Source of the DNA: a virus
Reading direction: 5' to 3' (one strand)
Length of the DNA stretch: 22,976 nucleotides
Virus record (IMG/VR): IMGVR_UViG_3300025508_000163
Span: 1 to 22,976 of that record
The notes under the pieces are model-generated. The model did not search any database. It had not been told where the DNA came from and was given only the letters and a program-made list of their open reading frames with translations. Each line of letters begins with the position of its first letter. Within the stretch, counting starts at the first letter, position 1. The translations under genes and the position numbers were made by a program. Below, piece by piece: positions 7,801-22,976 of the stretch.

Positions 7801-7935
7801 TTATAATTTAGATAGTTGCTCGTTTATTATTCTTAATTCTTGGATTGCATAGAAACTTAAGTGAGCATCATTTGCATCCACCCACCTGAATAAGCTTTCC
7901 TTATCCTTCGTTAATTCTTCTTTAGTTTTATTCAT
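7801..7935 (-). CDS. Hypothetical small protein, 44 aa
   Basis: 44 residues (MNKTKEELTKDKESLFRWV...), wholly helical and charged, with a Trp/Phe face in the middle. It is preceded by an AT-rich gap of 17 bases after the 49-residue gene. Below the usual length cut-off; the tight packing supports it. Confidence 0.5.
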   Translation of the reverse strand: MNKTKEELTKDKESLFRWVDANDAHLSFYAIQELRIINEQLSKL

Positions 7936-7952
7936 ATTATATTGTATTTCAG

Positions 7953-8102
7953 TTAGTTATGTGGTATTATATCAAGTTCTGCTTTAAGGCAGAAGGCATC
8001 CGCTACCAAGCGCACCGCCTCCCAATGTTCGTTGTACGTGAACAACTCGTATGCTAGTTCCAATTCTTGGAAACTTAGGTCTATGTATGGGTTATTTTTC
8101 AT
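7953..8102 (-). CDS. Hypothetical small acidic protein, 49 aa
   Basis: 49 residues (MKNNPYIDLSFQELELAYEL...), acidic and helical with well-placed aromatic residues. Its ATG at 8102 overlaps the upstream gene's end by 11 bases. Function unknown. Confidence 0.55.
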   Translation of the reverse strand: MKNNPYIDLSFQELELAYELFTYNEHWEAVRLVADAFCLKAELDIIPHN

Positions 8103-8511
8103 CTTTGATGTATATGTTTTTTTGTGCTAGGATGTCGAAGTATGCTTTCTCGCCACGTTCAACGCACATGTCAACAGCATCTTGCTCATTCTCAACGTAT
8201 TCAACAATGTCGAAGTAAACTCTACCTTCGTCAACCCATGTACCTATGCCTAGCGTTCTGTATGATGTATGTGCATCTAGATTGTCTAAGTATATGTCGT
8301 GTGCTTTGATGACAATTATATCTAGCTTGTTTAGGTATATGTCGAACAGCTCAGCAAATCTAGTTGATGCCTCTGCAAGGCAGTCAGCCTCAGTACACAC
8401 ACCACCTACAACGTAGCCTTTCAACCTAGTTTTTTCGTCTTTCCATAGCGTATATCCGCCATCCATTAGCGTAGTTCCGTACGCTAGTCGTGTTAGTTCG
8501 TGTTTATTCAT
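8092..8511 (-). CDS. Hypothetical protein, 139 aa
   Basis: Unrecognised. 139 residues, mixed alpha/beta: a beta-rich first part (YGTTLMDGGYTLWKDE; LKGYVVGG), helices at about 42-70, then strands (GRVYFDIVEYVENEQDAVDM). The last part recalls small phage proteins that report row/column-like beta sheets, but no family is recognised. The start overlaps the 60-residue gene upstream by eight bases. Confidence 0.65.
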   Translation of the reverse strand: MNKHELTRLAYGTTLMDGGYTLWKDEKTRLKGYVVGGVCTEADCLAEASTRFAELFDIYLNKLDIIVIKAHDIYLDNLDAHTSYRTLGIGTWVDEGRVYFDIVEYVENEQDAVDMCVERGEKAYFDILAQKNIYIKDEK

Positions 8512-9490: not shown

Positions 9491-9704
9491 AGGATAACTT
9501 TTGCAAGTTTCGACATAACATTTGAAATTAATTTGTAACTGACTGAACACAAGCAAGATACAAACGTTATTAATAATCATTCTAAATAAGGATGGAAAGC
9601 CCTAACACATGCGCGTAGGTGTGTGAACGGGTGCGTGTCGCGTCCGTGCGATACATGTGCGCATGACAGGCGCATGAGGTGAGTGAGATTTGTATTGGTA
9701 ATTC

Positions 9705-9777
9705 AATTGTCAATAGTAAACTGATTACGTAGTAAACACTGAGGAAATAATATCAATAGTAAACGTGGAATTGTCAA
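9705..9777 (+). repeat. Iteron-like direct repeats (TAGTAAAC x3, AATTGTCAA x2)
   Basis: TAGTAAAC occurs at 9714-9721, 9730-9737 and 9757-9764; the first and third are extended to TCAATAGTAAAC. AATTGTCAA occurs at 9705-9713 and 9769-9777, framing the cluster. Similar words (AGTAAA) recur in the dyad at 10321-10333 before the first late gene. Such spacing suits binding sites for an initiator or regulator. Confidence 0.5.
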
Positions 9778-9792
9778 CAACAAAACCCCTTA

Positions 9793-9900
9793 TGCGGGTG
9801 AGCGCAGAAGGACGCTATGACGTAGGAGGGATTGTCCTATGCTGATAGTCAACGACTTAGACTACAAGTCTTCACGTAATGCATGCACCATTCACCCGTA
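9793..9900. other. Predicted cloverleaf: three hairpins closed by a 9-bp stem
   Basis: TGCGGGTGA (9793-9801) pairs with TCACCCGTA (9892-9900), nine pairs with one G-T. Inside are a short hairpin GCG/CGC (9802-9815), a 7-bp hairpin with TAGGA/TCCTA core and 7-base loop (9821-9841), and GACTT/AAGTC with a 7-base loop (9854-9870). It could be a small RNA or a cruciform at the origin; lacking a T-arm or a U33-type anticodon loop, it is not a tRNA. Strand unknown. Confidence 0.35.
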
Positions 9901-10161
9901 ACGCACTGGCTACGAGTCTGTAAATGTATGCGGAATTCTAAACTTTGTTTAGGGGAGGGGGGTAAAAGATTGCGTTTCCGTTTACGTATCGTAACGCGTG
10001 TATATGTATATAATCCCCATTCCAAACATTACTCATAAATTTTTTTAGCCGAATTTTTACGTCCTCACGGGTCTTTCTTACCTTGTGTTTTACCATTTAC
10101 ATTCTCTAAAGCATTGAGAGGCGGTTAATTAGCACTGTTTGCTTAAAGTGTAGGTTTAATC

Positions 10162-10192
10162 TTGACTTTTCAATTTTTTTGTTATAACTTTG
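10162..10192 (+). promoter_or_regulatory. Rightward promoter TTG-N20-TAACTTTG
   Basis: TTG at 10162-10164, a 20-base T-rich spacer, then TAACTTTG at 10185-10192, the Bacteroidota -33/-7 pattern. It points at the late operon, leaving a leader of about 155 bases that contains a GCTTCT/AGAAGC dyad (10215-10251). Confidence 0.6.
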
Positions 10193-10311
10193 CTATATAT
10201 CTTTAAAGAACAAAGCTTCTCTATATATTTTTTGTGTGTACACTAAGAAGCATTATAGAATATTAAGATGTTATATACGGGATAGCTGTGCGGTGTTATG
10301 AATCGGTCCCT

Positions 10312-10349
10312 CTACTCTGATTTACTGAGTAAAAAAAGTAGTATATTTG
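10312..10349 (+). promoter_or_regulatory. Second -7 box (TATATTTG) with nested dyad upstream
   Basis: TATATTTG at 10342-10349 lies eight bases before the first late ATG. Immediately upstream, TTTACT-G-AGTAAA (10321-10333) is nested inside CTACT/AGTAG (10312-10316, 10337-10341). With no -33 TTG, the dyad may be an operator or activator site in its place. Confidence 0.4.
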
Positions 10350-10356
10350 CTACTGC

Positions 10357-10893
10357 ATGGAGTTACTAAAAAACATAAAGAAAAGCTTAAACTTCCAGGA
10401 CAGGTATTCTGAGATGGAGGGTGCTGGGGATGGGTTTGATCGAGGTGAGCTTAAACGTCTTAAGAAAATAAAGAAAGGTGGGGGTAGGGTAGATCAAGAC
10501 AGGTTAGATTACTTAGAGACTATCAGGAATGAAAGAGCTAGAGCTATAGGGACGGGGGCGTCTGCAGTAGGGGGGACCGCTTTAGGTATTGCAACGGGTA
10601 ACCCAATGCTAATAAAAGGATCTTTAGGTATGGGGGCTCAGTACTTGAGTGGTGAGGTAGGAGAGTTAGATGGGGCGAATGATGGTGTTGGTCAGCAGCT
10701 GGGCATGGAAGATGCTTTACGTGCTGCTAGCCCGTTTCTATCTAGCATAGGAGGAGGTAATAGAGATATGGGGTTAGATCCAGCTCTAGCGGAAGGGGTT
10801 GACTTCAACAGCGCTTTTATGAAACAAGGTGGTAAGCTTAGGTACAACCCACGCAAATATGACTATATAAAAGGTAATACCTTTGGACTCTAA
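10357..10893 (+). CDS. Hypothetical late protein, 178 aa, with Gly/Ala-rich hydrophobic centre
   Basis: 178 residues: a basic N-terminus (about 1-65, RLKKIKKGGGRVDQDRL), a Gly/Ala-rich weakly hydrophobic stretch at about 65-100 (IGTGASAVGGTALGIATGNP), then a soluble end with MKQGGKLRYNPRKYDY near residue 155. The centre resembles small virion or membrane-interacting proteins injected with DNA, but no family is recognised. First gene of the late block. The GGKL motif recurs in the gene at 11325. Confidence 0.6.
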   Translation: MELLKNIKKSLNFQDRYSEMEGAGDGFDRGELKRLKKIKKGGGRVDQDRLDYLETIRNERARAIGTGASAVGGTALGIATGNPMLIKGSLGMGAQYLSGEVGELDGANDGVGQQLGMEDALRAASPFLSSIGGGNRDMGLDPALAEGVDFNSAFMKQGGKLRYNPRKYDYIKGNTFGL

Positions 10894-11612: not shown

Positions 11613-11740
11613 ACAAATTCTACTTTAACCCAATAAAGAAAAGAAAAGACCACGCCAAAGAAGCCGAGAAAATAAAACTTAATAAAATAAAAAATGAAAC
11701 TAGAAGTAATAAGGTTCAACAAAGGGAAAGACTCAACTAA
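11609..11740 (+). CDS. Possible small basic ORF, 43 aa, TTG start
   Basis: Open frame from a TTG that overlaps the previous TGA (TTGA), reading NKFYFNPIKKRKDHAKEAEK, strongly basic and helical, to a stop 47 bases inside the DUF5675 gene. It fills an 81-base gap otherwise empty. The rare start and overlap make it uncertain. Confidence 0.3.
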   Translation: MNKFYFNPIKKRKDHAKEAEKIKLNKIKNETRSNKVQQRERLN

Positions 11741-12209
11741 CGGAATACTATTTGATATAAGCAATCGTGAAAGAAAATTTTTATGTTATACTCTCGAAGA
11801 TGAGAGCCGCGCCAAAAAGGTGCCAGGAGAAACTTGTATCCCTGAAGGGGAATATAGCCTCGGATTTAGAAGAGAGGGTGGCTTCGATGCCAAATACGCC
11901 CATAGGTTTTCTGATGTGCATATGGGGATGCTTGAAGTGTGTGATGTCCCAAATTTTAAATATATTCTTATTCATTGTGGTAATACTGATGAGGACACTG
12001 CGGGATGTTTACTACTGGGCGATACGCAAGAGAACAACAATATCAAAGAAAACGGATTTATAGGGAGAAGCACCCACGCGTACTACAGAGTCTACCAAGA
12101 AATCGCGGAAGCGCTCCAAAAAGAAGAAGTAACGATTACGTATAGAGATTTTGCGAAGTGCTTAATACTCTCCCCAACAGAGGTAAGTGAGTTTTTTGAC
12201 CATTGCTAA
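11694..12209 (+). CDS. DUF5675 family protein (YkuD-like motif)
   Basis: 171 residues. The family pattern is clear: MKLEVIRFNKGKDSTNGILF, CYTLEDE, VPGETCIPEGEYSL, MLEVCDVPNFKYILIH, then HCGNTDEDTAGC at 94-105. The H-x-G-N...T-x-G-C arrangement recalls the catalytic His/Cys of YkuD L,D-transpeptidases, so a role on peptidoglycan (lysis or entry) is an attractive inference, but DUF5675 has no established activity that I know. No signal peptide, as for many phage cell-wall enzymes that rely on a holin or sit in the virion. Its stop is two bases from the stop of the converging gene at 12212. Confidence 0.75.
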   Translation: MKLEVIRFNKGKDSTNGILFDISNRERKFLCYTLEDESRAKKVPGETCIPEGEYSLGFRREGGFDAKYAHRFSDVHMGMLEVCDVPNFKYILIHCGNTDEDTAGCLLLGDTQENNNIKENGFIGRSTHAYYRVYQEIAEALQKEEVTITYRDFAKCLILSPTEVSEFFDHC

Positions 12210-12963: not shown

Positions 12964-13203
12964 ATGGAAGGACTTATTAGAAAAATTGTGGTCGGAAGAG
13001 ACCCTAAAGACGGTATGGCTTATTATGTTGGTATGAGAGCTGGCGCAGGAAAGGTAAGTACAATAATACAAGATGATCGTCACCTATCTAAATATGGGAA
13101 GAATAGATATCTTGTGTATATGCAAGACGAAGAAGGGGCTCAAACGCTATGGAAAGCTATAGACGGGATGCCTTGTATGTTGGAGTTTGACTGCAACTTT
13201 TAA
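12964..13203 (+). CDS. Hypothetical small protein, 79 aa
   Basis: 79 residues, mixed beta and helix (MEGLIRKIVVGRDPKDGMAY; KVSTIIQDDRHLSKYGKNRY). Packed between neighbours (1 and 3 bases apart), so part of one operon. Conserved-looking but not recognised. Confidence 0.6.
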   Translation: MEGLIRKIVVGRDPKDGMAYYVGMRAGAGKVSTIIQDDRHLSKYGKNRYLVYMQDEEGAQTLWKAIDGMPCMLEFDCNF

Positions 13204-13206
13204 CTG

Positions 13207-13803
13207 ATGAGAACTTTTAATTTGTTTGTCGTTAAGCTTAAAGATAGGCTTAAGGATACTATTACCTCTGAATCTGGCTTCGAGTTATATGTAGACGCAA
13301 GGTTCGATGATTTTAAAAACAGAGTAACAGAGGGTCCCGTAGTGTGCGTACCTTTTAAATATGACACAGGGGTAGAGGTAGGAGATACATTATACTTCCA
13401 TCACCTGGTCGTTCTGGGTGGGGACAATAACGGGCAGATATTTACCGAGGAAGACAATACCTATATAGTAAACTACGATCCCAACCACGCAATTTCCAAT
13501 CAAGCCATAGCATATAAGAGCCAGAAGGACGGGAAGATACGGTGCCTAACGGGATGGTGTTTATTGAAATCAGTGGAGCAGGAGGAACTGACTCTTCAGT
13601 CCGATCTTATAGAGATAGTAGATTTGACGGAGAAACTCCCAACCAAAGCAGAGGTGGTATACACATGTAAAGAAGCCGACGAGATAGGCGTTCTACCTGG
13701 AGACGTGGTAGGGTTTAAACAAAACAGAGATTACCGTATAACTATAGACGGGGAGGAATATTTTCGAACCCGCGCAGAAGACCTTATGTATGTCGAAGTC
13801 TAA
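13207..13803 (+). CDS. Putative GroES-like co-chaperonin, 198 aa
   Basis: 198 residues. The last 38 (about 161-198: GVLPGDVVGFKQNRDYRITI, then DGEEYFRTRAEDLMYVEV) closely follow the Cpn10 end pattern VGDxV-F...I-I-DGEEY...R-x-DI. An earlier VEVGDTLYFHHLVV at about 57-70 repeats the GD motif, so the protein may hold two GroES-like halves, twice the usual 95-100 residues. Phage co-chaperonins (for example T4 gp31) refit host GroEL to fold capsid protein, which suits the late position. The mobile-loop motif that contacts GroEL is not clear, so an unrelated beta-barrel is possible. Confidence 0.5.
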   Translation: MRTFNLFVVKLKDRLKDTITSESGFELYVDARFDDFKNRVTEGPVVCVPFKYDTGVEVGDTLYFHHLVVLGGDNNGQIFTEEDNTYIVNYDPNHAISNQAIAYKSQKDGKIRCLTGWCLLKSVEQEELTLQSDLIEIVDLTEKLPTKAEVVYTCKEADEIGVLPGDVVGFKQNRDYRITIDGEEYFRTRAEDLMYVEV

Positions 13804-14080
13804 ATTTACCACAACGGGAGCAGCTACTAGACTTATGAAAAGTATGGAGGAAGCTATAAACAATATGATTGAAGAAATTCGTAAACCCGTAGACCCAGAG
13901 ATAAATGGGAGCGCTAGAAAAGCCGAATTACAATCAATAAAGCAAACAGCAACGGACTGTAAGGAACTGCTTATTGAAAGACAGAGGCTTGAACAAATGA
14001 TCAAAGACCTAAAAAGCAGCGGAGAGATAGAACAGGACGCAGATTACTCAGGTGGTTTTGCAGAAAGATTCTCAAAATGA
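13790..14080 (+). CDS. Helical protein upstream of terminase, possible small terminase or scaffold
   Basis: 96 residues, mostly helical with a likely coiled coil (about 45-75, CKELLIERQRLEQMIKDL) and a Gly/Phe-containing acidic end. Start overlaps the previous gene by 14 bases and its end overlaps the HNH gene as ATGA. Location a few genes before TerL and its size make TerS or an assembly factor plausible, but no HTH is evident. Function unproven. Confidence 0.5.
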   Translation: MSKSKFTTTGAATRLMKSMEEAINNMIEEIRKPVDPEINGSARKAELQSIKQTATDCKELLIERQRLEQMIKDLKSSGEIEQDADYSGGFAERFSK

Positions 14081-14532
14081 AGTGTTGTTATACATGCCAA
14101 AGACTTAAAGAAGAAGATGATTTCTACTCTTACGAAACAGGGCTTTATAAATCATGTAAGTCTTGTATTTCAAAAACCATAGCTTCTCAAAAACAAAAAA
14201 TATACAGTTGGGTAGATAACTATAAAGCGTCTCTGGGTTGTGGGCATTGTGGAAATAAAGATATGCGGTGCTTACAATTACACCATAAGGATTCTGAAAC
14301 AAAAAAACGTAGTGTAGCTCAACTTATAGGTAGCGGATATATATTTAAAACCGTTAAAGCCGAGGTAGAAAAGTGTGAGGTATTGTGTGCCAATTGCCAT
14401 TCTATCCATCACTACGAAGAAAGAAGATCTTCCACTTGGGGTAGGAGGGGTGAGGTTGAGGAAGAATTAGAAGACGAAATTAAACCTGTTGTTAAACAGT
14501 TAGAACTTTTCCTTAACTTTGTGGAAGGATGA
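14077..14532 (+). CDS. HNH endonuclease with zinc ribbon
   Basis: 151 residues. An N-terminal Cys knot (C4...C7...C27-x-x-C30) is followed by the HNH fold: C55-x-x-C58, LQLHHKD at 67-72 (catalytic His), and CEVLCANCHSIHH at 100-112 (metal-binding Cys pair, Asn and final His). HNH nucleases next to the terminase are common in phages and often needed for packaging or cos cleavage; homing is the alternative. The start overlaps the previous stop and the end overlaps the next start (ATGA). Fold assignment is firm, role inferred. Confidence 0.85.
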   Translation: MKCCYTCQRLKEEDDFYSYETGLYKSCKSCISKTIASQKQKIYSWVDNYKASLGCGHCGNKDMRCLQLHHKDSETKKRSVAQLIGSGYIFKTVKAEVEKCEVLCANCHSIHHYEERRSSTWGRRGEVEEELEDEIKPVVKQLELFLNFVEG

Positions 14533-14780
14533 ATCTAAAAAAAAGAGACTACAGGAAGGAATACGATAAGTTTCAATCTTCTCCAGAACAGAAGAAGAAT
14601 AGGGCTGCCAGGAATGGTCGCCGCATGAAACTTGTGAAGCAGGGGAAAGTGAAAAAAGGAGACGGAAAAGACATACACCACTATAGCGTTGGTGGCGTTA
14701 TAAAAACAAAAGTAATGCCAGCCTCAAAAAACCGAGGTATAGCAGAAAAATCTAGATTGCCAGGATCTAAACGTAAATAA
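14529..14780 (+). CDS. Small basic phage protein, 83 aa
   Basis: 83 residues, about one third Lys/Arg (KRDYRKEYDKFQSSPEQKKN; RNGRRMKLVKQGKVKKGDGK), then DIHHYSVGGVI and PASKNRGIAEKSR. The GKDIHH...NRG order recalls the core of HNH/NUMOD-like proteins stripped of catalytic parts. Likely nucleic-acid binding, near TerL. Overlaps the HNH gene as ATGA. Confidence 0.6.
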   Translation: MNLKKRDYRKEYDKFQSSPEQKKNRAARNGRRMKLVKQGKVKKGDGKDIHHYSVGGVIKTKVMPASKNRGIAEKSRLPGSKRK

Positions 14781-14791
14781 AATTTAATAAA

Positions 14792-14977
14792 ATGTCAAAG
14801 TATATATGCAACTGCTTAGATCACGAAGAAGAGATAAGCGAGGTAACAATATCGGTAAAAGACGGGGAGGTAGTAAGCTCTGCTCAATGTCCTTGTGGAC
14901 AAGCTATGGATCCTGCTAACCCTAAAACAGGATTCCCTTCCCTTGGGAGGATGAATAGGAACGGCAGCAGCTATTAA
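14792..14977 (+). CDS. Small zinc-ribbon-like protein, 61 aa
   Basis: 61 residues with C6-N-C8 near the start and C33-P-C35 after a beta hairpin (ISEVTISVKDGEVVSS), as in single zinc ribbons. Ends with a Gly/Pro/Asn-rich tail. Its TAA overlaps the ATG of the terminase gene by one base (TAATG), so translation is coupled. Function unknown; perhaps a packaging partner. Confidence 0.6.
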   Translation: MSKYICNCLDHEEEISEVTISVKDGEVVSSAQCPCGQAMDPANPKTGFPSLGRMNRNGSSY

Positions 14978-17097
14978 TGTCTTCTTTACTTGACGTAAAG
15001 GAATATGAAGAACCCGCTGTTAAGATTTGCCCCAACGGTACGGAAGGTGAGCTTATCGACCTCGGTGGGCTACTCATTTGCCTTCCTAAAAGGCCGCCGA
15101 AGAAAGACATTTTCGGATATAAAGAACCAAACGATCTGCAGCTGTGGAAAAGGGTATCTATGCCCAAGGAACTGTCTCGTATTCGTTCTATGGATGAGTG
15201 GTCGGAAATGCCGCGGGAATTCAGAGAAAAGTTTCGCCCATATGTCGAAGAGGAGTTTAAACGTAGGCGTGAAGGTTTTTGGTTTTATAACAACGGTACA
15301 CCTACATATATTACGGGGAGGCATTATATGATGCTTCAATGGACGAAGTTAGATGTTGGTTACCCTTACTTTTTAAATTTTCAACGTGAGATATTTTTAC
15401 ATATGGCTGCTTGCGAGGCTGATCCTCGTTGTATTGGTCAGCTTTATACTAAGTGCCGTCGTTCTGGGTATACCAATATATGCTCTGCTGTACTTGTCGA
15501 TGAAGGTACACAGGTTAAAGATAAACTTATGGGGATACAGTCTAAGACAGGAAAAGACGCCCAAGAAAACATCTTTATGAAGAAGGTGGTTTTTATGTTT
15601 AGAAACTACCCTTTCTTCTTTAAACCCATACAGGACGGTACCACCAACCCACGTATGGAGCTGGCTTTTAGAGAGCCATCAAAAAGAATTACAAAAAAGA
15701 ACAAAACCTCTCAAATGGGGGAAGCTCTTAACACCGTTATAAATTGGAAGAACACTACTAATAACGCATACGATGGGGAGAAACTCCATTTATTGTATTT
15801 AGACGAAGCAGGAAAATGGGAAAGACCTACAGACATAAGGGACGCTTGGAGGATTCAGAGGACGTGTTTGATCGTCGGAAGAAAAATCGTGGGGAAAGCG
15901 CTGGTGGGAAGCACCGTAAATCCAATGGACAAAGGCGGAAGCCAATACAAAGACCTATGGATGGATTCGAGTCCTTTGGAGAGGAACGCAAACGGTAGGA
16001 CGAGAACAGGTCTTTATAGGCTTTTTATCCCAGCGTACAATTCTCTAGAGGGTTTTTTTGATATTTATGGTCAGCCCGTTATTCAAGATCCACCAGAATC
16101 CGTTCCAGGAATAGATGGGGACCCCATAACCATAGGGTCAAAAACATACTTGAAAAACGAAAGAGAGTCTCTGAAAGACGACGCATCGGAATTAAATGAG
16201 GTTGTGAGGCAGTTCCCTTTTACCGAGGATGAAGCCTTTAGAGATAGTATTGAGGGTAGTTTGTTTAACATCGGGAAGATATACGCTCAGATACAATACA
16301 ACGATGAGCTTTTTCCGAACCCTGTAGTTCGAGGTAATTTTATCTGGAGGGATGGGGTGGCAGATACAGAGGTTGTTTTTTCCCCTAACGCGGAAGGTAG
16401 ATTTAGAGTGGCTTGGATCCCGCCCGAAGAAGTAAGAAACCAGAAAAGATCTAACCGAGGGAAAAGAGTAGCCCCAAACGATCATATAGGATGCGGGGGC
16501 GTTGACTCTTATGACCTAGATGCAACGGTAGATGGGCGGGGGTCAAAAGGAGCTTTACATCTTTATAATAAGTTTAACATGGAGTATCCTTCTAACACGT
16601 TTGTTTTGGAATATGCCTCTAGGCCTCCTCTGGCTAAGATATTTTACGAAGACGTCCTTATGGCCGCTGTTTTTTATGGTTACCCTATATTAATTGAGAA
16701 CAATAAGTATGGTATAGCAAGACACTTTGAGACAAGGGGTTATGATGGCTACCTAATGGATAGACCAGAACATTTAAGGGTTCCCAACGCTAAAATGAAG
16801 GTTAAGACAAAAGGGGTCCCTTCTAACTCTCAAGATGTTATACAGTCTCACGCCCACGCAATAGAGGCTTACATCCATGACCACATTGGTGTTAATGAAG
16901 ATTCTGGTGAACACGGGCGTATGTATTTTAACAAGACTTTAGAAGATTGGATAGGGTTTAAAATAGATGACAGAACAAAATTTGACCTTACTATAAGTTC
17001 TGGTTTAGCTCTTTTAGCGGCTCAAAAATCTAAGCCTAAAGCCAGAGCTAGTTTTTCAGAAAAGAAGTTTTTTAGGAAATATAATGTCTTAGGATGA
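14977..17097 (+). CDS. terL: Terminase large subunit
   Basis: 706 residues. Packages DNA into proheads with an ATPase and cuts with an RNase H-like nuclease. ATPase: deviant Walker A K159-CRRSG-Y-T166, Walker B with L275-D276-E277 (LLYLDEAG), coupling motif G311-S-T313. Nuclease: GVD508-510 with D510 and SYD at 511-513, E574 in ILIENN, and D670 in KFDLTISSGLAL as the third acid. An extended N-terminal part (about 130 residues) precedes the ATPase, giving a length above the usual 450-650. Start is the TAATG overlap; a promoter-like box follows the stop before the portal gene. High confidence. Confidence 0.9.
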   Translation: MSSLLDVKEYEEPAVKICPNGTEGELIDLGGLLICLPKRPPKKDIFGYKEPNDLQLWKRVSMPKELSRIRSMDEWSEMPREFREKFRPYVEEEFKRRREGFWFYNNGTPTYITGRHYMMLQWTKLDVGYPYFLNFQREIFLHMAACEADPRCIGQLYTKCRRSGYTNICSAVLVDEGTQVKDKLMGIQSKTGKDAQENIFMKKVVFMFRNYPFFFKPIQDGTTNPRMELAFREPSKRITKKNKTSQMGEALNTVINWKNTTNNAYDGEKLHLLYLDEAGKWERPTDIRDAWRIQRTCLIVGRKIVGKALVGSTVNPMDKGGSQYKDLWMDSSPLERNANGRTRTGLYRLFIPAYNSLEGFFDIYGQPVIQDPPESVPGIDGDPITIGSKTYLKNERESLKDDASELNEVVRQFPFTEDEAFRDSIEGSLFNIGKIYAQIQYNDELFPNPVVRGNFIWRDGVADTEVVFSPNAEGRFRVAWIPPEEVRNQKRSNRGKRVAPNDHIGCGGVDSYDLDATVDGRGSKGALHLYNKFNMEYPSNTFVLEYASRPPLAKIFYEDVLMAAVFYGYPILIENNKYGIARHFETRGYDGYLMDRPEHLRVPNAKMKVKTKGVPSNSQDVIQSHAHAIEAYIHDHIGVNEDSGEHGRMYFNKTLEDWIGFKIDDRTKFDLTISSGLALLAAQKSKPKARASFSEKKFFRKYNVLG

Positions 17098-17102
17098 TTC
17101 AC

Positions 17103-17110
17103 TATATTTG
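17103..17110 (+). promoter_or_regulatory. -7 box (TATATTTG) before the portal gene
   Basis: TATATTTG with following C, identical to the boxes at 10342 and on the minus strand at 3493, in the 39-base gap between TerL and portal. No TTG/TTTG about 20 bases upstream. Possible internal late promoter. Confidence 0.4.
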
Positions 17111-17136
17111 CATAAAGTAATTATACTTATTTTATA

Positions 17137-19554
17137 ATGATCAGCAATTCAAGCAATCGTACTGGTAAGTTTCCAGACCCTCTAGCGCCCAAGGATTTAA
17201 AAGATAATAAAGCCTATGGCCTAAAATATGCAAAAGCTATAGAGAGTCAGTGGAACTCAACAAACGAAGAAAATGCTCTTCAAAAGAAAAGAAGCAAAAC
17301 CTTTGAAAGGAACCGTGACTACGCTCAAGGCGTTCAAAACACAACGATATACAAAAGGCTCTTAAACTCTTTAGACCCTAATTCTGGGGACGGCAGCTTG
17401 CTAAACCTAGACTACACCCCTGTACCTATTCTTCCAAAATTTGTAAGGATAGTAGTAAACAAGATTCTATCAAGAGACCCCTACCCTAACTTAGAGGCCG
17501 TAGACCCTTTGTCTTCTTCAGAGAAGAATAAGGAGAAGAACCGCTTACGAATGCAGGTCCAAATGAAAGCTGAGCTTACTAAGCTTAAGCAGGATACTGG
17601 TGGGTTGGTCTTAGATAAAGACCCTGAAGCTTTACCCGACAGTTTAGATGAGGCTGAAATTTTCTTAGACACAAATATAAAAACAGACGCGGAGATAGCT
17701 GCTCAGATAGCTACAAACATTACGCTTTCGTGGAATAACTTTAATGACAATGTGTTTAGGCGTTGCGTTAATGATCTGGCCGCTTTAGGGATGGCTGTTG
17801 TCCACAGAACTAACGATCCTAACTACGGTATAAGAACAGAATACGTAGATCCAGCTAAGTTTATACATAGTTATACTGAGGACCCTAGCTTTGACGATCT
17901 TGTATATGGGGGTAGTATAAAAACAATACCTATACAGGAGTTAAAAAGATTAGCGGGGGACGAGCTTACAGAAGAGGACTTTGAAAAAGTAGCAAGGAAA
18001 TCTAGCGGTAATAGTATGTCCCCATACTCTTCTCACTATGACGCTTCTTCTAAGAAATCGGTCTATGGGTATGACGAGCATACGGTAGAGGTTTTAGACT
18101 TTGAATTCCTTTCAGTTGACTGTATGTACTTCGAGGAGAAGGATAATAGACACGGAAATACAAATTTTTTCTATCAGGGTCACTCGTATAAAGAACGTCC
18201 AGGCAGCGTGTTTGATCGCACCCCACATAAAATGGAGGTTACAACGGTGTACTCAGGTAAGTACATATTAGGTACGGATTACATTATAAATTACGGTCAG
18301 AAGACAAATGTACCAAAAAACATACACGACATAAGTAAAGCCACTTTGTCATACTCTGTTGTAGCTACGAACATAAGCCGAATGATGCCTAAGTCTATGG
18401 TTGACAGCTGTGTAGGTTTTGCGGATATGCTACAGGTTACTCACCTAAAGATTCAGCAAGCTATAGCAAAGGCAAAGCCAGATGGATTGATTATAGACGT
18501 GGAGGGTTTAGAGGGGGTTGAGATAGGTAAAGGGGGTGAGCTACAACCGTTAGATCTTCACGATATATACGAGCAGACGGGTGTATTCTACTATAGGAGT
18601 AAAAACCCAGAAGGCGGTCATCAAAATCCTCCTATTAGGGAGATTGGAAACAGCATAAGGAATATCAATGAGCTTATAGGTCTGTACAATCATTACTTAA
18701 AATTAATTCGTGATACGACTGGGATAAACGAAGCTATGGATGCTTCCTCCCCTAAAGGTGACGCTTTGGTTGGTGTAAGAGAACAAGCGATTGCTGCTGG
18801 TAACAATGCTATATATGATATAACTAATGCTTCTATGATCCTTTACAAAAAGGTTTGTGAGGATATAGTCAAGTGTTTGCAGATAATACCAGAAAAGTCG
18901 GCTTTACGGAATATATATGAAAATGCTGTGGGGTCTGAAAACATGAAGGTTTTGGCTTCTTTTGGTGATCTACCGATGTATAATTTTGGCGTCCAGGTCC
19001 AGAAAGAAATGGAAAGCTCGGACAAGCAGTACTTAGAACAAAGTTTACAAATAGCGTTAGGCCAAAAAGAAATTGATCTTGAGGATGCTATGATGGTTAG
19101 GTCGATGAAAGATGTGAACCAAGCGGAAAGACTCCTTATGGTTAAACGCAAAAAAAGACAAAAGTCTCAGCAAGCTATTGCCCAGCAGAACTCTCAAATG
19201 CAGTCGGAGCAGGCTCAGGCGGCGTCACAGGCGGCGTCACAAGCCAAGCAGCAAGAGATGCAGATGGAAGCCCAGCTTGATGCTCAGAGAATACAGATAA
19301 AAGCCCAAGCCGAAATACAAGTAGCTCAAGCCCTGCATGAGTTGCACAAGGAGATAGAGGTTATTAAAGCTCAGGCTACTCTAGGGTTTAAGACTGACGA
19401 TCAAGAGTTTAAAGAAAAGATAGAGGTTTTTAAAGAAAACCGTAAAGACGATAGGATTGTTAAGCAGGGTGAAGAGAAGAGAAAAACAACTCCTCAACCC
19501 CCAGCTGAAAGTCCAAACAATCAAGAGGTAATGAATACAACGCTTAATCAATAA
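17137..19554 (+). CDS. Portal protein with long coiled-coil tail
   Basis: 805 residues. The dodecameric portal ring is the DNA gate and head-tail connection point. Visible portal features: PILPKFVRIVVNKILSRDPY at about 97-116, an alternating beta/helix core with VVHRTNDPNYGIRTEYVDPA near 228-247, and the TTGINEAMDASSPKGDALVG segment at about 527-546 that is usual before the crown helices. From about 660 to 770 runs a Gln/Ala/Glu/Lys-rich coiled coil (QQAIAQQNSQMQSEQAQAAS), longer than in most portals and perhaps extending into the capsid or scaffold. Follows TerL by 39 bases, as expected. A 12-base tandem duplication lies in the tail. High confidence. Confidence 0.85.
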   Translation: MISNSSNRTGKFPDPLAPKDLKDNKAYGLKYAKAIESQWNSTNEENALQKKRSKTFERNRDYAQGVQNTTIYKRLLNSLDPNSGDGSLLNLDYTPVPILPKFVRIVVNKILSRDPYPNLEAVDPLSSSEKNKEKNRLRMQVQMKAELTKLKQDTGGLVLDKDPEALPDSLDEAEIFLDTNIKTDAEIAAQIATNITLSWNNFNDNVFRRCVNDLAALGMAVVHRTNDPNYGIRTEYVDPAKFIHSYTEDPSFDDLVYGGSIKTIPIQELKRLAGDELTEEDFEKVARKSSGNSMSPYSSHYDASSKKSVYGYDEHTVEVLDFEFLSVDCMYFEEKDNRHGNTNFFYQGHSYKERPGSVFDRTPHKMEVTTVYSGKYILGTDYIINYGQKTNVPKNIHDISKATLSYSVVATNISRMMPKSMVDSCVGFADMLQVTHLKIQQAIAKAKPDGLIIDVEGLEGVEIGKGGELQPLDLHDIYEQTGVFYYRSKNPEGGHQNPPIREIGNSIRNINELIGLYNHYLKLIRDTTGINEAMDASSPKGDALVGVREQAIAAGNNAIYDITNASMILYKKVCEDIVKCLQIIPEKSALRNIYENAVGSENMKVLASFGDLPMYNFGVQVQKEMESSDKQYLEQSLQIALGQKEIDLEDAMMVRSMKDVNQAERLLMVKRKKRQKSQQAIAQQNSQMQSEQAQAASQAASQAKQQEMQMEAQLDAQRIQIKAQAEIQVAQALHELHKEIEVIKAQATLGFKTDDQEFKEKIEVFKENRKDDRIVKQGEEKRKTTPQPPAESPNNQEVMNTTLNQ
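19216..19239 (+). repeat. 12-bp tandem duplication in portal coiled coil
   Basis: CAGGCGGCGTCA occurs twice in tandem, coding QAAS-QAAS within the Gln/Ala-rich tail. In-frame, so it lengthens the coiled coil without frameshift; locally GC-rich compared with the flanks. Confidence 0.7.
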
Positions 19555-19961: not shown

Positions 19962-20135
19962 ATGAGTTTGGCGGTTACTATATCAGCAGGAAACAGCATA
20001 ACGGCTACGACAAATGACGGGAAGTCGGTTGGTTTTACCTCCAGTTCAACTTTAATTACGTACACCTCACCTGTAGCTCCTAGCCCTACTATAAATGAAA
20101 ACGCAGCTGAAACAATAAACGTTACAGTAACTTAA
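19962..20135 (+). CDS. Small Thr/Ser-rich virion-like protein, 57 aa
   Basis: 57 residues (MSLAVTISAGNSITATTNDG...), beta-rich, Thr/Ser/Asn/Val, almost no charge, ending TINVTVT. ATG four bases after the previous stop with AAAGG just ahead, one of few Shine-Dalgarno-like sites here. Shorter than a 60-residue cut-off. Probably a structural accessory like its neighbour. Confidence 0.55.
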   Translation: MSLAVTISAGNSITATTNDGKSVGFTSSSTLITYTSPVAPSPTINENAAETINVTVT

Positions 20136-20151
20136 AAGCATAACAGTAAAT

Positions 20152-22584
20152 ATGAAGAAACTATTATTCCTTTTATTCTTTTTACCAGTAACGGTATTTA
20201 CTCAAAACAGTTGGGTTAAAGTGGAAATGCAACCTGATCAGTACGCAGGTGAAACATCATGGGAGATATATAACGCAGATGGGGATACCGTAGCGGTTAG
20301 CCCTGTGTATACCTCTAATGTTTACCAGGAAGACATTATCCCATTAGACGCGGGGTTCTATAATCTCGTTGTACATGACTCGTTTGGTGATGGAATATGC
20401 TGTGATTTTGGTAGTGGTTGGTTTGGAGTAAGCAATGATTGCGGATTAAGCAACTATGTATATGACTTCAATTCAGTGCAAGCGGTTGTAGCATTTACTT
20501 TAGACGAATGCCTTTTGCCTGTAGCTGGATGTATGGATCCTGAGGCATACAACTTCAATCCTGAAGCAACAATAGAAAGCCCTGTTTGTGAATACGAAGT
20601 AACATTTAGATTAGACCTAAATGGACCGCATCCACCAATAGAGATACCTGAGGTTAATGGTGAGTTTAATGGATGGTGTGGTAACTGCTGGGCTATGTCA
20701 GACAATAATACTGATGGAGAATGGCAATACAGCGCAATAATACCCGAAGGTACTTACTTGTGGAAATTCTCAGCTGATACCTGGCTACAACAAGAGTTGC
20801 CTGTCGGTGTGTCTGAGTCCCCTTGCTTTTTATTTGATGCTAACGGATATGTGAATAGAACCTTAGTCGTAGATGGAAACATTACGCTACCCCCGTTCTG
20901 CTGGGAATCGTGCTTGCCGTGTGGAGCTGTAGTAGGATGTACAAATCCTGAAGCTACTAACTGGAATCCCTGGGCTAACTTTGACGAAGGATGTAACGTT
21001 GTAGAATCTGCTGACTGTGGACTTGGCTTTACTGAAATCTCTGTAACTATAGTCCCAGACAATTACCCCGCAGAAACGAGCTGGAACTTAATAAACAACA
21101 GCTTAGGTACATACATATACCAAGTGCCTGTAGGAAACTATGCTAATGCTCCTGTAGGCATTCCAATTACAACTAACGTTTGCACACCAGTAGGCAGTTC
21201 TGTAACATTTGAACTTAACGATACATACGGTGACGGACTTAACGGAGCTTTATGGGGAGGTCAGGACGGTGGAGCAATGGTTGCAGCCTGCTCTGAAACT
21301 TTATTTCTATTAGAGCCTAGCATGGTTAATTTTAACTATGGTTTATCAGAAAGTTTCAACGCACCAATATGCGAGCAGATAGATGATGTGCTCGGATGTA
21401 CAGACGAAAACTATGTAGAATACAACCCAGACGCTATAATCTCTATACCTACTATGTGTTTAACCGAGAAGGTTTATGGGTGTACAGATGAAGATTACTT
21501 TAACTACGACGAACTAGCCAACACCGAGGATCAAGTGGACTCATGTTTCTATACGCTTACGATAACAGACGGTGTAGGTGATGGATGGTTTGGTAGTTGG
21601 GTAGGCGTGCATCAAGATGGCTGGGTGTCACCTCAGTATCAGATGGGTCCTGATGACGGAGACGAACAATCTTTTGAGGTCTATCTTTCTTCCGAAGAAG
21701 AGATAGGGCTTTACTTCTTTACAACACCGCAGTCTCAGTTGTCTGCCGCGCAATGCGGGTTTATGCTTGAGGGGCCTACAGGAGATACGCTGCTACAGGT
21801 TGATCAGTGGGATGCGGTTCCATTCCCCTACACATACAGCGTTGCACCTTATTGTGGAAACAACTGTGAGCCATTTACGTATGGTTGTACTGACGAATCG
21901 GCTCAGAACTACAATGCTGACGCCAATACTAATGATAGTGAATGCTATTATTCTGCGGGGTGTATGCAGCCAGGCTATGTAGAATACTACAACCAGGGGT
22001 ATGAGGCTGACTTTGACGACGGTAGTTGTAACGAGTTAGCTGTCTTCGGATGTATGGATGAGCTGGCTTTAAATTATGATCCAGAAGCTAACGTGGATAT
22101 AGAAAGTTGTATTGAAGTAATACTTGATTGCACGGACCCTATTGCAGTGAATTACAACGAGTTAGCTAACACCCCTAATAATGAGTTGTGTTTATACGAT
22201 GCGGGATGTATTGGTGAGCCTGGTGAGCCGTACTACTTAAATGATTCGTGTTACGCCTGGATTATTGATATAGACTCGTACTGTTGTGAGGTAGCTTGGG
22301 ACGATGCGTGTGTTGATCTATATAGTTATTGTGAGCAGGGATGGCCTATGGGGGTCTCACAGGTTAATGATGGGCTTAGCGTCTACCCTAATCCAGTAAA
22401 CAGTGTACTTAACATACAAACCTCTCTAGACGTACTTACAGAGGTGTATAACGCATTAGGTCATTTGATAGTATCAGGCACTAAAGAAAAGAGGATTGAC
22501 CTGAGCGGGCTTCCTAGTGGGGTCTATCAGGTTGTTATAAACTATAACGGTAGGATTATTAATAAGAAGATTGTAAAGATATGA
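20152..22584 (+). CDS. Large secreted protein with T9SS type A sorting domain and Cys repeats
   Basis: 810 residues. Signal peptide at 1-18 (KKLLFLLFFLPVTVFTQ). The last 70 residues start LSVYPNPVNSVLNIQ (742-756) and end GVYQVVINYNGRIINKKIVK, the type A C-terminal domain that sends proteins through the type IX secretion system to the Bacteroidota cell surface. Between are about eight GC(T/M)D...NYN/NP...C repeats (from 126, 262, 415, 443, 578, 603, 633, 659), three DxxGDG turns (near 75, 358, 473) in recurring (A/P)AETSW...GDG modules common in marine Flavobacteriia, a stretch at about 147-212 (EFNGWCGNC...GTYLWKFSADTW) like AMPK/CBM48 starch-binding domains, and a DSYCCEVAWDDAC motif at 708-720. 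It would be exported and anchored outside the infected cell, perhaps for adhesion or exclusion. Same operon as virion genes; stop overlaps the next ATG. Confidence 0.85.
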   Translation: MKKLLFLLFFLPVTVFTQNSWVKVEMQPDQYAGETSWEIYNADGDTVAVSPVYTSNVYQEDIIPLDAGFYNLVVHDSFGDGICCDFGSGWFGVSNDCGLSNYVYDFNSVQAVVAFTLDECLLPVAGCMDPEAYNFNPEATIESPVCEYEVTFRLDLNGPHPPIEIPEVNGEFNGWCGNCWAMSDNNTDGEWQYSAIIPEGTYLWKFSADTWLQQELPVGVSESPCFLFDANGYVNRTLVVDGNITLPPFCWESCLPCGAVVGCTNPEATNWNPWANFDEGCNVVESADCGLGFTEISVTIVPDNYPAETSWNLINNSLGTYIYQVPVGNYANAPVGIPITTNVCTPVGSSVTFELNDTYGDGLNGALWGGQDGGAMVAACSETLFLLEPSMVNFNYGLSESFNAPICEQIDDVLGCTDENYVEYNPDAIISIPTMCLTEKVYGCTDEDYFNYDELANTEDQVDSCFYTLTITDGVGDGWFGSWVGVHQDGWVSPQYQMGPDDGDEQSFEVYLSSEEEIGLYFFTTPQSQLSAAQCGFMLEGPTGDTLLQVDQWDAVPFPYTYSVAPYCGNNCEPFTYGCTDESAQNYNADANTNDSECYYSAGCMQPGYVEYYNQGYEADFDDGSCNELAVFGCMDELALNYDPEANVDIESCIEVILDCTDPIAVNYNELANTPNNELCLYDAGCIGEPGEPYYLNDSCYAWIIDIDSYCCEVAWDDACVDLYSYCEQGWPMGVSQVNDGLSVYPNPVNSVLNIQTSLDVLTEVYNALGHLIVSGTKEKRIDLSGLPSGVYQVVINYNGRIINKKIVKI

Positions 22585-22976
22585 AGTACGTATTAGCCTT
22601 ACTATTGTCTACGCTGTGTATTAGCACAAGCGCACAAGCCCTAAAGAAAACCTTTAAGTTCGCTACGTTCTATACAGCCTTTAGCGGTGGGAACTCCATA
22701 GCGGATGACAACGTATACTCTGTAACAGGCGGTCTCCAAACAGATGTTGTTGCGACCCCGTTTGACTATTCGTTTACGGCTGGGGTTCGTAAGATAGCTA
22801 GATTTGGGTATGAGAACCGTGCCAATGCATTCTATAACGGGACGGAAAGATCGTATAGCGATGCCGCTACGGTGGGTAAAGTAAAAGGCTTTGAGTTTTT
22901 ATTCGAGGCGGACTGGCGTAGACAGCAAGGGACAAACTTCCTGGATCAAAATCATTTCCTAAGATACGTAGCTAAA
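22581..22976 (+). CDS. Secreted or outer-membrane protein, C-terminus cut by window edge
   Basis: 132 visible residues. Signal peptide MKYVLALLLSTLCISTSAQA with an AQA cleavage site after residue 20, then alternating polar/aromatic strands (FKFATFYTAFSGGN; FDYSFTAGVRKIARFGYE; GFEFLFEADWRRQQG) suggesting an outer-membrane beta barrel. ATGA overlap with the T9SS gene shows coupled translation. It may hold the exported partner or alter the host envelope. The barrel call is inference; the end and true family are outside the window. Confidence 0.6.
   Translation, partial: MKYVLALLLSTLCISTSAQALKKTFKFATFYTAFSGGNSIADDNVYSVTGGLQTDVVATPFDYSFTAGVRKIARFGYENRANAFYNGTERSYSDAATVGKVKGFEFLFEADWRRQQGTNFLDQNHFLRYVAK

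Follow-up and report, generated by a model that had tools for sequence, protein, structure and literature searches.

A phage late operon encodes a predicted type IX secretion cargo within a four-gene envelope cassette found in uncultured phages

RESULTS

The late operon of an uncultured marine phage with a putative Bacteroidota host encodes a protein that is predicted to be exported by the type IX secretion system (T9SS) of the host. This cargo protein is the first member of a four-gene set (hereinafter, the cassette) that, judging from sequence searches, is phage-specific and present in hundreds of uncultured phages. Apart from the cargo, the cassette consists of genes for a 12-strand outer membrane barrel, a small membrane protein (TM94), and a secreted thioredoxin-like (Trx-like) protein without a CxxC motif.

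A phage gene with type IX secretion signals

The window, that is, the whole stretch of DNA analyzed here, is an IMG/VR record of 22,976 bases in which the terminase and portal genes are followed by the phrog_1084 gene, a 57-aa open reading frame (ORF), and the cargo gene (Table 1), an arrangement that agrees with an earlier note on this DNA, where the gene was placed in the late operon after the portal gene and two virion-like genes. The cargo ORF, read from the sequence as extending from an ATG start to a TAA stop, begins 16 nt past the 57-aa ORF, both in the portal operon, and its stop overlaps the barrel ORF by 4 bp (ATGA). The barrel ORF, which also starts with a signal peptide, is cut by the window end. 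A scan for promoters and terminators yielded no signal above chance. Elsewhere in the window, a phage co-chaperonin GroES (phrog_13932; 13207-13803) is encoded 5' of the terminase, and a DUF5675 protein (phrog_1501; 11694-12209) is possibly a lysis gene; a DUF5675 gene of the same family lies directly 5' of the cassette in L014, L015, and L150. A gap of ∼0.8 kb (∼9552-10357), where leftward genes switch to rightward ones, is possibly a divergent control region.

TABLE 1 Features of the window and the evidence for each
Feature	Coordinates	Strand	Evidence
Terminase large subunit (phrog_6681)	14977..17097	+	E 7.8e-203
Portal protein (phrog_6547)	17137..19554	+	E 4.7e-192
phrog_1084 gene, kept after the portal gene in the window's phage group	19557..19958	+	PHROGs match
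57-aa ORF separating the phrog_1084 gene from the cargo gene	19962..20135	+	Sequence reading
T9SS type A cargo protein, 810 aa, net charge ∼-107, 39 Cys	20152..22584	+	Complete ORF; TIGR04183/PF18962; AF2 model pLDDT 78.6
Sec signal peptide (residues 1-18, ..VFTQ) with Q close to the cleavage site, as known from Bacteroidota	20152..20205	+	Sequence; kept in homologs; Q-rule PMC5837995
Region with eight GCxDPxAxNYNPxA-type Cys repeat units, residues 126-675	20527..22176	+	Sequence
CBM20-like beta-sandwich, residues 147-252, optional in family	20590..20907	+	AF2 + VIA: Z 10.3 to 2z0b, 10.1 to 8x8k
T9SS type A C-terminal sorting domain, residues 744-809 (VYPNP...IVKI)	22381..22578	+	TIGR04183; fold match
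Outer membrane barrel gene, start only (132 of 345 aa; complete in L002:12430-13467)	22581..22976	+	ORF; AF2 12-strand barrel

The signal peptide, Cys repeats, CBM-like segment, and type A sorting domain that the earlier note had recognized in the cargo were all recovered from the sequence, the HMM searches, and the AF2 model. The N terminus has a K-rich start followed by a hydrophobic run and ..FTQ, a pattern kept in homologs; read directly from the sequence, the signal peptide is MKKLLFLLFFLPVTVFTQ, with N as the next residue. A glutamine after the signal peptide is the rule in Bacteroidetes (PMC5837995), and Porphyromonas phages have been observed to follow this Q-rule as well (PMC10367356).

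At the C terminus, the sorting domain scored above the curated cut-offs of both models suggested in the earlier note, TIGR04183 (54.5 bits; cut-off, 23) and PF18962 (47.8 bits; cut-off, 27). Residues 741 to 810 of the AF2 model superpose on the C-terminal domain (CTD) of NucA in the translocon (8glk_D; Z 9.2, rmsd 2.0), with further fold matches to 8gl8, 8glj, and the RgpB CTD. The sorting domain is present in all 83 cargo homologs longer than 300 aa, with the PNP motif in 80. The part of the earlier interpretation by which the late operon of a phage codes for a protein equipped for T9SS export in the host is supported as a prediction. Apart from the sorting and CBM domains, the matches of the whole-cargo model to the PDB were mostly uninformative and of the repeat type. 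An enzymatic cargo was rejected given that no catalytic family was found in Pfam or NCBIfam and that the PDB profile matches were confined to the sorting domain, all being T9SS C-terminal domains.

The Cys repeats have the consensus form GC(T/M)DPxAxNYNPxA, with DTYGDGLNG and DGVGDGW domains between them, and number up to 24 per protein in the cargo family. The CBM-like segment takes a fold like that of CBM20 starch-binding domains in the window's cargo but is not a constant feature of the family, with the motif present in 17 of the 72 homologs.

The cargo gene belongs to the phage genome

The combination of a signal peptide, Cys repeats, and a sorting domain is typical of flavobacterial secreted proteins, and this resemblance is what speaks for a recently captured host gene or an assembly join, an origin that the earlier note had considered. 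Such an origin is extremely improbable in light of the gene order around the cargo. At 100% protein identity, the cargo recurs in three more IMG/VR contigs, with the order portal, phrog_1084, cargo unchanged. One of these, of 62,292 bases, appears circular; its ends fall within the barrel gene, which is completed at the first bases of the contig. Past the barrel, this genome encodes TM94, the Trx-like protein, a LamG-type 919-aa protein, and small repeated virion-type genes; further on, there are a 368-aa scaffold-like protein, a 472-aa capsid-like protein (a relative of which matches phrog_13704), large virion proteins, and then the holin. Because scaffold and capsid genes follow in this apparently circular phage genome, position 20140 does not mark a junction between phage and host, and the location of the cargo between portal and capsid genes, which the earlier note had proposed to look for in other viral contigs, was indeed observed. 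Capture is further contradicted by the lack of barrel relatives in 84,980 genomes, where the cargo itself matched only one, likely mis-binned contig (see below). The "host-type" origin ascribed to the cargo features was not borne out because the homologs were found in phages, not in hosts.

The closest cultured phages by portal protein are Flavobacterium elemo phages and Cellulophaga phages (25 to 31% identity), and in those checked, structural genes come directly after the portal gene. The type A sorting domain was absent from one elemo phage, MW202828, phi38:1, and phi4:1. In related genomes, the slot after the phrog_1084 gene is empty or filled by fiber-like genes. The earlier note had regarded capsid genes right after position 20135 in related phages, together with an occurrence of the cargo gene only in host genomes, as a sign that phage sequence ends near 20140. 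Capsid genes directly follow the portal region in some related phages, but the cargo gene belongs to phages rather than to hosts.

The cargo is part of a conserved four-gene set

The same four genes surround nearly every homolog, with the order permuted in some. The cargo gene is adjacent to, and on the same strand as, 89 of the 91 distinct full-length barrel genes, the other two being near contig ends; TM94 accompanies 84 and the Trx-like gene 81 of these barrels, most of the gaps falling at contig ends, and a few large phages seem to lack both. The ATGA overlap recurs in 51 cargo/barrel pairs. Distance matrices of the four families are correlated (r, 0.45 to 0.70, versus a null maximum of ∼0.22 under permutation). 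Among 30 long phage records, 24 contain a type A sorting domain, with exactly one match each. The cargo is the most variable member, with a median identity of 42%, compared to 64 to 71% for the barrel and TM94.

Some loci depart from the common layout. In L137, L138, L139, and L140, a tandem duplication of the cargo (∼700 aa plus 411 to 521 aa) precedes the barrel. In L009 (9695-12382) and L011 (8249-10909), the cargo frame is open in the 5' direction into a basic phage protein (phrog_7595), which could reflect a fusion or an internal start; the sorting domain of these two cargos is the most diverged (IRPTV for YPNPT).

Barrel, TM94, and Trx-like protein

The 345-aa barrel protein has a Q-type signal peptide and about 12 strands in the AF2 model (pLDDT, 74; pTM, 0.67), with fold matches to KdgM, NanC, and autotransporter barrels (Z of ∼15). 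Q19, following the signal peptide, is invariant, and polar residues at positions 70 to 117 are strongly conserved. No Pfam match was obtained for the L002 and L171 barrels and no NCBIfam match for the L002, L020, and L171 barrels; there was likewise no barrel match in PHROGs and no match of the cassette to the PADLOC models of anti-phage and exclusion systems. Barrel enzymes similar to OMPLA or LpxR were considered as candidates (Z of 12.7 and 11.8, respectively), yet many unrelated 12-strand barrels score equally and the active site could not be mapped, so such activity is not claimed.

TM94 is a 94-aa protein with a single transmembrane (TM) segment, whose C-terminal flank is the more negative one (-4.6 versus -0.4). 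A motif similar to that in the C-terminal part of TM94 sits on a small lipoprotein in a 105-kb phage, L199 (11797-12033, - strand), where a second lipoprotein (7835-8149, - strand) lies between the cargo and the barrel; given this occurrence on a lipoprotein, the C-terminal part of TM94 is expected to be outside the cytoplasm. The sequence suggests that this tail forms a coiled coil. The Trx-like protein, ∼120 aa in length, is putatively secreted. CxxC is found in none of its 81 homologs and VPT, the candidate cis-Pro segment of a thioredoxin fold, in 80 of them, and matches to PF00085 were below the gathering score (E, 7.9e-5 to 0.0042).

Occurrence of the cassette

The barrel profile identified at least 557 relatives in IMG/VR viral contigs but not a single one in 84,980 genomes of bacteria and archaea, in a scan that requires exact degenerate patterns, such that very distant relatives could escape. 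The single match of the cargo profile in bacterial and archaeal genomes is a 3.8-kb contig of an archaeal metagenome-assembled genome (MAG) that itself carries the cassette (L187; CALBOT010000064.1, binned as Nitrosopelagicus) and is likely a mis-binned piece of a phage. A tblastn search of 50,697 phage records with three barrels, two TM94s, and one Trx-like protein returned no barrel or TM94 match and no specific Trx match, and no cultured phage with the cassette. The BFVD entry A0A516LKJ4 (E, 5.5e-22; 21% identity) is likely a distant relative. Cassette-bearing contigs reach 122 kb; some of their terminases are closely related to that in the window, and others very distantly or not detectably so.

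Mobility and proximity to lysis genes

The cassette moves as a unit. It occurs in several phage backbones, where it occupies the slot between the portal and capsid genes or lies beside unrelated lysis genes. In a quick tree of the barrels, the location (portal slot versus elsewhere) changed at least 8 times and the gene order at least 5 times on well-supported branches. A lysis-type gene lies within 3 genes of 38 of the 91 cassettes, including 36 of the 62 outside the portal slot, as compared with 1 of 40 portal, 1 of 41 terminase, and 0 of 21 capsid genes, in loci that were centered on the cassette; the lysis-type genes counted were the phrog_3427 holin, a two-TM holin-like gene, the Amidase_2 endolysin, and DUF5675, with a role in lysis only presumed for the two-TM and DUF5675 genes. 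In the window's phage, the cassette lies between the portal and capsid genes, far from the holin of this phage. In two relatives without the barrel and cargo, TM94 is still encoded next to the holin.

Alternative T9SS effectors

Two relatives with genomes of 64 to 65 kb lack the barrel and the type A cargo, so the cassette is not essential for lysis in this group; one of the two retains TM94 and the Trx-like gene beside the holin and, facing them, encodes an alternative pair of T9SS effectors, namely, a secreted M43 metalloprotease and a protein with a type B sorting domain recognized by TIGR04131 (40 bits) and CHU_C (2.8e-16). In the cassette-negative relative L194, this pair is located at 13173-16087 (+ strand) beside 16088-17171 (- strand). 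The same pair adjoins the cassette in L005 and L006, and CHU_C proteins are above the cut-off in 6 of 26 phage records. Thus, related phages encode a range of T9SS effectors. Outside these relatives, two huge uncultured phages of ∼0.64 Mb (LR745206.1 and LR756502.1; H27 and H26, respectively) also match the type B T9SS sorting domain.

DISCUSSION

To our knowledge, little has been established on how phages exit from Bacteroidota cells and alter the infected cell surface. In the mechanism that we propose, the four cassette genes would be expressed late in infection. The cargo would cross the inner membrane via Sec, and its C-terminal domain would then be recognized by the host T9SS translocon, which would deliver the protein to the cell surface. 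The barrel is predicted to reside in the outer membrane and TM94 in the inner membrane; the conserved tail of TM94 would project into the periplasm, where the redox-dead Trx-like protein is expected. With parts placed in the inner membrane, the periplasm, the outer membrane, and the surface, the set could span the envelope, and the four proteins might contact one another. Around the time of lysis, the cassette may remodel or weaken the outer layers of the infected cell and so act as a functional counterpart of spanins or outer membrane disruptors, whereas the exchangeable surface part may also mask receptors on cells and debris. Late, lysis-coupled envelope remodeling is the best reading of the directly supported features, namely, the genes, tags, folds, linkage, joint movement, and proximity to lysis genes, and has, in our estimate, an even chance of being correct. 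Several observations weigh against it: in the window's phage, the cassette is away from the holin; the two 64- to 65-kb relatives do without the type A cargo and its barrel partner; an o-spanin is a lipoprotein, which the barrel is not; and a hyperacidic, repeat-rich cargo with a carbohydrate-binding-like domain resembles a coat or an adhesin more than an outer membrane disruptor.

Such a coat is the alternative over which we favor lysis-coupled remodeling, and we regard it as possible, if on the doubtful side. The cargo would cover the cell and debris and mask receptors, so that rival phages could not adsorb (superinfection exclusion), as the earlier note had envisaged in part, or progeny would not be lost onto debris, with the other three genes serving as helpers for export and anchoring. 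The variability of the cargo is what one would expect of an exposed effector; its extreme acidity and many Cys repeats, the alternative effectors (M43 metalloprotease and type B cargos) in the same genome regions, and the optional, mobile nature of the module also fit, and the same idea has been put forward for Cryophage (PMC7468147). However, the genes are positioned late, not early, and a coat does not predict the repeated closeness to holin and endolysin genes. Lysis coupling is favored by the neighboring genes and a coat by the variable, acidic cargo, and both could be true. Adhesion of infected cells to particles, polysaccharide, or other cells, with progeny freed near new hosts, is suggested by the CBM20-like domain of the window's cargo, by the surface anchoring that the sorting domain implies, and by a marine Bacteroidetes virus whose curli genes have been proposed to cause aggregation (PMC7198788); yet it is unlikely considering the scarcity of the CBM-like motif among the homologs, and it leaves the inner membrane and periplasmic partners and the lysis-gene neighbors unexplained. 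We consider it highly improbable that the cargo is a virion component attached to particles as an adhesin: it is encoded among virion genes, and similar Cys repeats occur in a cyanophage virion structural protein, but the Sec signal peptide and T9SS domain would take it out of the cytoplasm, the site of head assembly, its partners are envelope proteins, and the cassette is found outside the head genes in other backbones.

Extending lysis-coupled remodeling further, we tentatively speculate that TM94, the redox-dead Trx-like protein, the barrel, and a T9SS-exported effector might form a phage-invented trans-envelope machine that takes over the host T9SS late in infection and breaches or re-coats the outer membrane, and that would be widespread, with exchangeable effectors, in uncultured Bacteroidota phages. 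A module linking phages to host type IX secretion in hundreds of uncultured phages provides a concrete, testable gene set, and it includes a phage family of 12-strand outer membrane barrels that is common in IMG/VR yet missing from Pfam, PHROGs, and PADLOC.

Comparison with known systems

With T9SS type A cargos (TIGR04183/PF18962), such as Flavobacterium johnsoniae NucA and RgpB, the cargo shares the signal peptide, the C-terminal Ig-like sorting domain with the PNP motif, and the multidomain layout of secreted proteins. In contrast to those proteins, it is encoded by a phage, and its gene neighbors the phage-specific barrel, TM94, and Trx-like genes; orthologs were not found in bacterial genomes. 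The idea of export is not new because phage T9SS cargos were already reported (PMC7468147 and PMC6949934); a phage cargo of this kind, which the earlier note called unusual, is uncommon but not unprecedented. The Cryophage cargos (Bellas et al., 2020; PMC7468147) are similarly phage-encoded proteins with type A sorting domains in a Bacteroidota phage, but they are endoglucanase, GH39, and PA14 proteins encoded by variable single genes, and a four-gene envelope cassette is not mentioned in the accessible part of that report. In cluster 2 of the gut BACON phages (2019; PMC6949934), proteins with T9SS sorting domains are also encoded near phage head genes; these differ in containing BACON repeats, and a linked module of barrel, TM94, or Trx genes is not described in the sections available. 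Within the literature searched, the conserved four-gene module seems to be new.

The juxtaposition of an outer membrane barrel gene and a T9SS cargo gene is shared with PorP/SprF and PorV, in contrast to which the cassette barrel lacks Pfam and NCBIfam matches and is modeled with 12 strands, like KdgM, NanC, and autotransporter barrels. PorP/SprF structures do not appear in the VIA match lists, but this carries no evidential weight. Spanins and outer membrane disruptors are likewise late genes near the holin and endolysin genes, with an inner membrane protein that has a periplasmic, probably coiled-coil tail and the potential to span the envelope. The topology of TM94 fits that of an i-spanin, and it lies beside the holin in some phages, though not in the window's phage. 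A small outer membrane lipoprotein of the o-spanin type is not the partner here, lipoproteins having been seen only in G051; unlike in spanins, the outer membrane partner is a 345-aa, 12-strand barrel, and the cassette further comprises a Trx-like protein of the periplasm and a surface protein of the T9SS type.
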